Source: an uncultured bacterium (lineage in GTDB: Bacteria; Elusimicrobiota; Elusimicrobia; Elusimicrobiales; Elusimicrobiaceae). Taken from it: a stretch of DNA of 64,000 bases. Below, in pieces: positions 30,437 through 32,046 of this stretch. Each line of letters starts with the position of its first letter. The first letter of the stretch is position 1. The stretch spans positions 248,001-312,000 of the forward strand of contig CASEVJ010000005.1 in assembly GCA_949291365.1 (NCBI GenBank), given 5' to 3'. The translations under genes were made by a program, and so were the position numbers. The notes beneath the pieces were generated by a model, which saw only the letters and a program-made list of their open reading frames with translations, searched no databases and was not told the DNA's origin.

Positions 30437-30523
30437 TTATTTTAGGTGATACCACTCACTGGCAAACCCCCACACCGCCACTGCCAGCAAGAGCGTCAGA
30501 ACGACGCGAAGCAGAATGTCCAT
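30437..30523 (-). CDS. Possible 28-residue transmembrane peptide
   Basis: The minus strand encodes 28 residues starting MDILLRVVLTLLLAVAVWGF and ending SEWYHLK, one hydrophobic helix with a charged N-terminus. This is the form of many single-span small proteins, including some type I toxins. There is no SD. The start is preceded by a CTAAC-AGA-GTTAG palindrome (30532-30544). The same TTAG-type motif occurs upstream of the divergent regulator at 30902. Seen only as an ORF; function unknown. Confidence 0.3.
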   Translation of the reverse strand: MDILLRVVLTLLLAVAVWGFASEWYHLK

Positions 30524-30901
30524 AACAAAAACTAACAGAGTTAGCAAAATAAACAAACTATTATTTCAGACGTTTCTATTTATAATATACGCTCTTTGAA
30601 AACAATATTTTGTAACTTTACTAACTCAAAGCACTATTTATTTGCTAAAATAAGACCGCATAGATCAGGCAAGAAATATGCGGCCGGGACGGTGGGGAAC
30701 AACCTATCACTAGGCCATGATAGCGGCCCGGAGCCCCGGGCCTTCCCCGCAAAACGCCTCGCCAGCGTTTGTCCGTCCGAAGAAAACAGAGAAAGAACAA
30801 AGCGGATTTGCTCCGCATATTGTTAGTATAGTAAGTTTTGTTAGCGTTTGTCAAGTTTTTCCTGTTTTTCTCTTTTTTGTCTGATTATAAAGGAGAAAGA
30901 T
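30524..30901. other. Regulatory spacer upstream of the repressor-like gene
   Basis: Contains TATAAT-like sequences around 30590, a GC-rich structured block (30655-30770, including CCCGGAGCCCCGGG) and several copies of (T/A)GTTAG: complements at 30532-30537 and 30621-30626, direct at 30539-30544, 30821-30826 and 30839-30844. These may be operators for the adjacent regulator. Confidence 0.4.
30820..30844 (+). promoter_or_regulatory. Paired TTGTTAG sites, candidate operators
   Basis: TTGTTAG at 30820-30826 and again at 30838-30844, 18 nt apart (about two helical turns). They precede the repressor-like gene by about 60-80 nt. Confidence 0.4.
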
Positions 30902-31609
30902 ATGAACAAATTTGAAAAACAGTTAGAAAAATGGAATCACGGTGTCTTGCGCGGCGCCCAGGCAAAGTTAGCGAAGACACTGGGCGTTTCCACCGCTACC
31001 ACCGCGCTGTGGGCCACCGGCAAGCGCCGCCCCTCCAAAGGATACGTCGCCCAAATGGCCCAGCTGTTTGGGCTGGATTCTTTTGACGTATTTAAACTCT
31101 TTGATTACCGTTCCACTACCTACCCCGAGCCCAGAGCCGTTCCGTCCGTGCATGCCCTGCGGGATCAGGATAATGGGGGCTGCTCGTATTTAGCCGGAGA
31201 AGGGTTTTTGCACGAGTCAGACGCATTCCCCGAGCAAAGCAACAGCGTGCAGCTGCCCTTTTTAAATTCCGTCCCCGCTCATTATCCCAATTATGAAGAA
31301 AGCGACATTATAGAGTGGTGGAGCGTGCCGCGGCGCTTTGCGCAAGGAGCCAAGTACATACTGCGCACGGCTGACACGGGCTGGGACAAACATGCCGACA
31401 AAGACGATTTGTGCCTGGTCAAGCCCGGGCAGGAGCTGGCGGAAGGGAAAATTGTCCTGCTGGAAGTACAGGCCGGGCGCTATGTGACCCGACGCGTCCA
31501 AAAGGAAGGCGCCCAAACGCTATTTTTATCTGCCGATGGAAAGAAGAAAGAAACGGCCCCGCAAGGGCGGATATTGGGCATGCTGGTTAAACGCATCAGC
31601 AATGTCTAA
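30902..31609 (+). CDS. XRE/S24-like transcriptional regulator
   Basis: A 235-residue protein with the CI/LexA-like two-domain plan. An N-terminal helix-turn-helix (about 18-65: AKLAKTLGVSTATTALWATG) precedes a C-terminal S24 peptidase-like beta domain (about 150-235: KYILRTADTGW, DLCLVKPGQELAEGKIVLLEV). The self-cleaving dyad seems to be lost. The GDSM serine position reads ADTG, and the VKR lysine position reads VTRR. It may therefore be a repressor not controlled by RecA cleavage. AAAGGAG supports ATG 30902. TTGTTAG repeats lie upstream. Confidence 0.75.
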   Translation: MNKFEKQLEKWNHGVLRGAQAKLAKTLGVSTATTALWATGKRRPSKGYVAQMAQLFGLDSFDVFKLFDYRSTTYPEPRAVPSVHALRDQDNGGCSYLAGEGFLHESDAFPEQSNSVQLPFLNSVPAHYPNYEESDIIEWWSVPRRFAQGAKYILRTADTGWDKHADKDDLCLVKPGQELAEGKIVLLEVQAGRYVTRRVQKEGAQTLFLSADGKKKETAPQGRILGMLVKRISNV

Positions 31610-31652
31610 ATGTCAAATTTCCCCTTGTTTTTGGCAATAAAAGGACTATACT

Positions 31653-31658: not shown

Positions 31659-31659
31659 A

Positions 31660-32046
31660 TCCCGGAACGGGTTGGGATATGCAAGGCAGAAAATGTGCGT
31701 CTGCTGTCAGTTTTGCCCGGTGACGCAAGACGGCAAAAGGCGCATAAACTGGTCGGGTCACGCCGGCAAGATACCGCGAAGAACGGTGAAGCGTAAGTAC
31801 GTGGCTTTGAAGCAGAAAATTAAATGTTCCTTGAAAATCAGACCGCAAGACCGCAACACACCAGTGCGTACGCTTGGGTTTTTGCCGTCGGGCAAATACC
31901 ACTGAGAAACGGGCTGTTGGTTGGGGTGGTTTGAAAGGGATGTTTCACTGTTTTGTGATCTTAAGCCCATTACCGGGAAGGGAAGAAAATGAATGAGTGC
32001 ACCTAGAGTCCTCCGTATTTATGGAATACGGGGGGCTCTTTTTTGT
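31660..32046 (+). ncRNA. Candidate structured noncoding RNA, about 390 nt
   Basis: A non-coding interval with its own promoter on the left and a clear terminator on the right (32011-32046: CTCCGTATT / AATACGGGGG then T6). Several long-range stems can be drawn by eye. TTTTGCC/GGCAAAA (31711-31738) sits inside TGTGCG/CGCATA (31694-31746). AAGCGTA-x-GTAC pairs with GTGC-x-TACGCTT (31789-31800 with 31864-31875). TTTGCC-GTCG-GGCAAA is at 31881-31896. GGGCT pairs with AGCCC (31911-31968), and TCCCGG with CCGGGA as a closing helix (31660-31665 with 31973-31978). It lacks the conserved cores of RNase P RNA, tmRNA and SRP RNA. Identity unknown. Confidence 0.5.
32011..32046 (+). terminator. Terminator of the candidate RNA
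   Basis: CTCCGTATT-TATGG-AATACGGGG hairpin followed by CTCTTTTTT. The 190 nt from here to the yggS promoter hold no supported feature. Confidence 0.8.

Follow-up and report, generated by a model that had tools for sequence, protein, structure and literature searches.

A structured RNA with a mini-ORF set against its terminator in a genus of Elusimicrobiaceae

What is encoded between a regulator gene and yggS in an uncultured member of the Elusimicrobiaceae, and what might its product do? The window analysed here, 64,000 nt of contig C5, is contained in a 1.39 Mb genome (G000), and the initial annotation, made from the letters of this stretch, had proposed an orphan structured RNA at this place. 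We call it RNA1 and place it, by homologues and covariation, at 31659..32044 on the plus strand; it is about 390 nt long and has its own promoter and its own terminator, both conserved. The interval folds to −152.3 kcal/mol, 5.65 SD below shuffled sequences, and 0 of 100 shuffles folded as low. It had been stated that no ORF fits the interval. That part fell, since ORFs of 77 aa (plus strand) and 98 aa (minus strand) overlap it, but the non-coding reading stands: ORFs at related loci differ from those in this genome, and a coding reading was rejected on that ground. Conservation at RNA1 is explained by base-pair covariation, not by the overlapping ORFs.

Covariation, proposed initially as a check on the RNA, is present in each of three clades taken separately and goes beyond shuffled and slid controls, by which we recognise a structured non-coding RNA. 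The clade A structure (alignment A4, 17 rows) has 111 pairs; double changes occur in 65 of these, where shuffles give 34.0 (SD 3.1; 0 of 500 shuffles) and the best slid control 37. For clade B (A3, which took in 24 of 32 available rows) there are 71 pairs, with double changes in 39 against 25.5 when shuffled (0/500); counted by cells, double changes number 182 against 63.9 (0/500). Clade C (A6, nine rows) has 106 pairs, 45 with double changes against 21.3 (0/500). Locus L047 was left out of another alignment, A5, for its two N. The percentages of cells paired, 91.1% in clade A and 94.8% in clade B, favour the structures because these were drawn from the same alignments. Compensatory changes in the three clades uphold a closed multi-branched domain of about 250–360 nt, and with the Rfam negatives given below they bear out the orphan structured RNA first proposed.

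In this genome the closed domain spans 31659..31977 (plus strand, as are all its parts). A closing helix had been seen at once and is confirmed as helices P1/P2, 31659–31689 with 31948–31977; its 3′ strand ends just ahead of an SD-like stretch. It is well supported in clades A and C, and in clade B it is visible by eye and absent from the counted structure. Inside lies a hairpin arm at 31696..31744 (31696–31716 / 31725–31744) of 16 pairs (helices 3 and 4), 12 of which show double changes. The next arm, 31749..31815 (31749–31763 / 31797–31815), carries an inner hairpin (31774–31777 / 31783–31786) and holds the sequence best conserved in clade A (GTAAGTAC..GGCTTTGAAGCAGAAAA). A long-range helix at 31824..31943 (31824–31830 / 31937–31943) encloses a core arm, 31853–31924, that belongs to the plan shared among clades; the helix reads AUGUUCC/GGGAUGU in this genome and its clade B counterpart AAGAGUU/AAUUCUU, in other letters. 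An ACAG/CUGU pairing is common to clades A and B. Some pairings read from the single sequence fared less well. The 11-bp pairing of 31789–31800 with 31864–31875 is complementary here, yet the relatives do not preserve it, with 81.3% of cells paired where shuffles give 80.6%; a double change occurs at one pair, and both strands sit in other, covarying helices. Of two TTTGCC/GGCAAA hairpins, the first gives way to a covarying TTTTGC/GCAAGA helix and the second (31873–31886/31891–31906) stands.

The promoter of RNA1 is TTGTTT-16-TATACT (31625..31652, plus strand; TTGTTT at 31625–31630, TATACT at 31647–31652), with an A/T-rich dyad between the hexamers. It lies about six bases upstream of the TTGGCA-16-TATAGT chosen in the initial annotation, and it is the conserved one. 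The TTG-to-TATA(C/A)T spacing, 16 nt between hexamers in this genome, is common to 60 of 61 RNA1 promoters from all clades; the odd row (G081) was mis-anchored in the comparison, and its promoter is legible in its sequence. One genome (G098), near-identical to another (G020), was left out of the promoter and mini-ORF counts. The mean score of the dyad is 4.72, where shuffles give 3.62 (standard error 0.14), with the same centre in 28 promoters and an adjacent one in others; it may be an A-tract and not an operator. At the other end, what had been read as a strong terminator is an intrinsic one at 32005..32044 (plus strand), with stem 32005–32019 / 32025–32039 and a T-run to 32044, and is helix 16 of the clade A structure. 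Setting aside one mis-picked row (G080), RNA1 terminator hairpins have 13–15 bp and −18 to −28 kcal/mol.

Is this a known RNA? Rfam 15, run on the whole window, gave no match of RNA1 at the gathering score, so that this check of the orphan status, too, came out in its favour. Search of RNA1 up to E 10 returned nothing credible (best E 0.84, a eukaryotic lncRNA region), and neither did 20 diverged RNA1 loci up to E 5. RNase P RNA and tmRNA, which had been set aside from the letters, are both encoded elsewhere in the genome: ARAGORN finds no tmRNA in the window and the genome's own is at C10:64437-64782 (124 bits), and the class A RNase P model finds none here and a copy at C1:52132-52469 (215 bits). 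A tmRNA (RF00023) is likewise structured with a short internal reading frame, but RNA1 has neither a tRNA-like end nor a tag frame. SRP RNA and 6S RNA had been dismissed as well, and RNA1 matches the models of neither; this exclusion rests on those models, as neither RNA was located in this genome. RF00013 (6S RNA) has no match in the RNA1 region or anywhere in the genome, and the SRP models have none in RNA1 or elsewhere in the genome, with a tool that misses the B. subtilis SRP RNA too. None of 61 Elusimicrobiota genomes had a match to the small SRP RNA (RF00169) at its cut-off, and the large SRP RNA was not found in this genome; the missing SRP RNA reflects either a divergent SRP RNA or a limit of the tool. 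No description of RNA1 was found in titles and abstract openings of the open-licence literature on Elusimicrobiota noncoding RNA and riboswitches, Avelusimicrobium, and structured-RNA classes.

We scanned 340 genomes of the phylum with two covariance models, R1 for the 140-nt 5′ core of RNA1 (built from 12 sequences) and R2 for the 76-nt 3′ core, which captures the core arm (23 sequences, clade B alone). R1 matched in 33 genomes and R2 in 47, for a union of 61; a local R2 match (E 8.5e-11) at locus L078 of G027 makes 62. Of the 66 genomes in the genus, 62 thus have an RNA1 relative, with one match each, and the other 274 genomes of the phylum have none, in scans whose stricter filters lose weak matches and leave absence outside the genus unproven. 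Although R2 was made from clade B only, it recovers 9 of 9 loci of clade C/G027 and 8 of 17 of clade A at the expected place. A DNA search of 61 genomes gave 13 matches, every one inside the genus. Among 14 contig matches, 13 are from MAGs of Elusimicrobiaceae/Elusimicrobiales, including Candidatus Avelusimicrobium excrementipullorum, and some of the MAGs that carry RNA1 come from the gut of sheep, yak and roe deer; the 14th, inside alaS of a Clostridia MAG, was rejected as chance. In viral contigs one RNA1 pattern had three matches, with no credible R2 support (best E 0.18), and a second had none, so among the viral contigs searched we saw no sign of transfer to phages. Four genomes of the genus have no match. 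In G003 the contig stops behind the neighbouring XRE/S24-like gene, and in G022 and G036 that gene was likewise not found. G082 (L071) keeps the neighbouring gene and yggS and has lost RNA1, save a promoter-like remnant read by eye. As far as found, RNA1 is the first example of a structured RNA family that spans the genus, a group of little-known gut bacteria.

Its genomic setting is nearly constant on one side. The gene directly upstream (30902..31609, plus strand) encodes an XRE-type HTH / S24-like regulator and is present in 63 of 66 genomes of the genus; by comparison of coordinates, 60 of 61 genome-wide R1/R2 matches lie directly downstream of it. The exception, G081 (L135), has lost the regulator gene and the divergent RNA described below, and keeps RNA1 with its promoter. 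In Pfam the regulator matches HTH_31 (E 4e-4) and Peptidase_S24 (E 8e-4), but neither match reaches its curated cut-off. The copy in this genome lacks the Ser/Lys dyad of S24 proteases, which 9 of 59 homologues retain, all of them from clade C or G027; the regulator has lost the protease dyad in clades A and B and keeps it in clade C. Downstream, the gene is yggS in clade A and others in clade B, and 8 of the 18 loci read have it on the opposite strand; therefore RNA1 is not the leader of the next gene. The initial annotation had thought a riboswitch unlikely and had given the next gene a promoter of its own, and it was right on both: in G000, yggS (32244) begins 200 nt further on and shows a promoter-like start of its own. 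A yggS leader, riboswitch or attenuator was rejected, there being no conserved same-strand gene downstream.

The conserved block upstream of the regulator gene turned out to be a minus-strand TTGACA..TATACT promoter. It belongs to a second structured RNA that had been missed, RNA2 (30647..30819, minus strand), divergent, with −35 at 30854, −10 ending at 30825 and a terminator hairpin at 30650–30685. In 27 loci with the divergent promoter recognised and enough flank, RNA2 is terminated and about 170–190 nt long. Double changes occur in 20 of its pairs in clade B (nine rows) against 7.3 when shuffled, and in 21 in clade A (eight rows) against 8.4 (0/500 in both). RNA2 was folded in clade C as well. 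It has no Rfam match and is unrelated to RNA1. A crude duplex test in 26 genomes gave no preference for pairing between the two RNAs (mean −121.1 kcal/mol, against −121.3 with mismatched partners). Behind RNA2 we read from the sequence a 28-aa hydrophobic mini protein, MDILLRVVLTLLLAVAVWGFASEWYHLK (30437..30523, minus strand), of a size like that of type I toxins; similar small ORFs occur at clade B loci. An inverted repeat, GAGTTAGTAAAGTTA / TTTGCTAACTC (30612–30629, 30532–30548), precedes it and resembles the repeats at the divergent promoter. G081, with RNA1 and neither regulator nor RNA2, and G082, with the regulator and no RNA1, are natural experiments.

The 3′ end of RNA1 holds a feature that also escaped the first reading. 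The order is closing helix, SD-like stretch, ATG, 5–6 codons, stop, terminator. Here the SD-like stretch AAGGGAAGA (31978..31986, plus strand; sequence and alignment) comes directly 3′ of the closing helix; the SD-like AAGGGAAG precedes the mini-ORF ATGAATGAGTGCACCTAG (MNECT*; 31989..32006, plus strand), and the terminator is directly after, its stem beginning inside the stop codon. Pairing of the SD-like stretch with 16S rRNA is assumed, because no 16S 3′ end could be located in the assembly. An automatic test scored the mini-ORF in 53 of 61 RNAs, which are not 53 independent events since the species are related. There are six codons in 31, five in 21, and one was scored with a longer alternative start; the stops are TGA (23), TAG (19) and TAA (11). 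The mini-ORF was read by eye in seven more (G016, G091, G073, G086, G004, G015 and G099), where the script had missed terminators or stem starts. In 42 of the 53 scored RNAs, stop and terminator stem overlap by exactly 2 nt, the last two bases of the stop being the first two of the stem. Shuffled linkers yield a 5–6 codon frame at that place in 2.2%. The mini-ORF is genuinely absent in G030, which has lost it together with the terminator and keeps the RNA1 core; with G082, which has lost RNA1, this means that neither RNA1 nor mini-ORF is strictly essential.

The encoded peptides vary (MNECT, MKEST, MEESTR, MERLEN, MNKPVR, MKRAT, MEKAIS). Start, length and stop position are kept while peptide sequence and type of stop codon drift, which argues for translation as such. 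We take the conserved mini-ORF as a signature of translation, not proof, and infer that it is translated and that the ribosome matters, not the peptide. In clade C the closing helix takes up part of the SD-like bases, so access of a ribosome there would need opening. A self-complementary hexamer also lies in the mini-ORF (31992–32003 in the window). In clade A, 13 of 17 mini-ORFs have a perfect 6-nt palindrome, with GTGCAC, GTCGAC and CTGCAG interchanging among related species; such palindromes are in 18 of 43 distinct mini-ORFs, some of them mis-picked, against 5.3 expected. The overall count, 29 of 59, is too low, since the script picked the wrong frame in a few clade B RNAs. The palindrome does not occur in clade C, in G027 or in much of clade B, and is a lead only toward self-pairing of RNA1.

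The reading we prefer, at a probability of about 0.35, is that RNA1 works in trans as a structured RNA, its mini-ORF serving to dock it on ribosomes. The SD-like stretch abuts the closing helix, and a ribosome would fit between this helix and the terminator hairpin. The footprint of a ribosome is given as about 13 nt past the initiator codon (PMC8708949); with the ATG 16–19 nt upstream of the terminator stem, an initiating ribosome should just fit before it. The terminator hairpin would begin near the front edge of an initiating 70S and, lying at the mRNA entrance, would slow the ribosome once it moves. Closing helix, SD-like stretch and terminator would together form a clamp for one ribosome. 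The structured domain would then be presented on the platform side of the small subunit, where it may act on translation or where RNA1 may be protected and localised. The neighbouring XRE/S24-like protein may repress the RNA1 promoter, the least supported step. Taken furthest, RNA1 would be the first known ribosome-docking RNA holding a ribosome at initiation to act on it, and with RNA2 and the XRE/S24-type protein would form a genus-specific three-part translational switch; we consider this extension unlikely.

SgrS and RNAIII are dual-function small RNAs, structured and trans-acting, with a short ORF. RNA1 would resemble them in joining a trans-acting structured RNA and a short ORF on one transcript, and differs in that its ORF has only 5–6 codons, is 3′-terminal and fused to the terminator, and its peptide drifts. 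The txe and LEE4 minigenes, as described in PMC8708949, also combine an SD with a very short ORF, and there, as proposed for RNA1, occupancy by the ribosome matters and not the peptide; they lie in leaders of real genes, whereas the RNA1 minigene is the end of a separate RNA. In the LEE4 leader, ribosomes occupying a six-codon minigene, which has a strong ribosome-binding site, keep RNase E off the mRNA (PMC8708949). This precedent, and the drifting peptide, fit a possible though less probable explanation, in which the structured domain acts elsewhere (on a protein or by mRNA pairing) and the ribosome on the mini-ORF only keeps nucleases from the 3′ end. The terminator hairpin protects that end already, however, and the base-exact placing of the stop on the stem (42/53) would be left unexplained. 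We doubt rather more that RNA1 is a stress effector under the XRE/S24 repressor, a toxic minigene that on release ties up ribosomes or drops peptidyl-tRNA. The constant neighbourhood (60/61 RNA matches), the dyad between −35 and −10 and the conserved divergent promoter beside the regulator speak for it; yet only 9 of 59 proteins retain the Ser/Lys dyad, the RNA1 promoter has none of the TTAGTA-type repeats found near the regulator's start, G081 keeps RNA1 without the regulator, and the toxicity of minigenes, according to PMC8708949, declines with length.

The remaining explanations are all improbable to us. The palindromes (13 of 17 in clade A, 18 of 43 distinct) would suit a self-assembling scaffold in which the linker hexamer pairs RNA1 copies, as palindromes in OLE and GOLLD are described to covary between copies (PMC12286853), and RNA1 shares with OLE, ROOL and GOLLD, as that source presents them, an elaborate covarying fold and a possible self-complementary contact. 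RNA1 is smaller than these, however, has no Rfam match, is a chromosomal single copy and ends in an SD-mini-ORF; neither clade C nor G027 has the palindrome, much of clade B lacks it, and codons could account for part of its signal. Slightly less probable still is a sensor in cis, with the domain gating the SD-like stretch and a ribosome at the stop melting the terminator to let reading run on into the next gene. A closing helix that abuts or overlaps the SD-like stretch and a stop codon on the terminator stem would serve this well, but what follows RNA1 differs between clades and in 8 of 18 loci runs on the other strand, and in G000 the next gene, 200 nt on, has a promoter-like start of its own. 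We give even less weight to the peptide as the product, a signal or effector made from a structured mRNA: start codon, length and stop are kept, and MEEST[RKN] and MNECT/MKEST recur inside clades, but little beyond Met is common across them (MNECT, MERLEN, MNKPVR, MKRAT, MEKAIS), and a peptide needs no ornate domain of hundreds of bases. Least probable is a strongly diverged housekeeping RNA, SRP or 6S. Neither was located in the genome, and the small SRP RNA stayed below its cut-off in all 61 Elusimicrobiota genomes; against this, searches up to E 10 or 5 match RNA1 to no SRP or 6S model, order-mates without RNA1 likewise yield no SRP RNA (the tool missed the B. subtilis SRP RNA in both searches), and G082 has lost RNA1.

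It is uncommon for a structured RNA class to span a genus and have no known relatives, and such classes are usually a sign of new biology; the unrelated structured RNA2 at the same locus makes RNA1 more striking. That the stop codon of a translatable mini-frame forms part of the RNA's own terminator is an arrangement not met in descriptions so far. The mini-ORF against the terminator suggests, from sequence, an RNA built to sit on ribosomes; if a ribosome is truly held at the mini-ORF, RNA1 would be a compact, testable design for an RNA acting on ribosomes.
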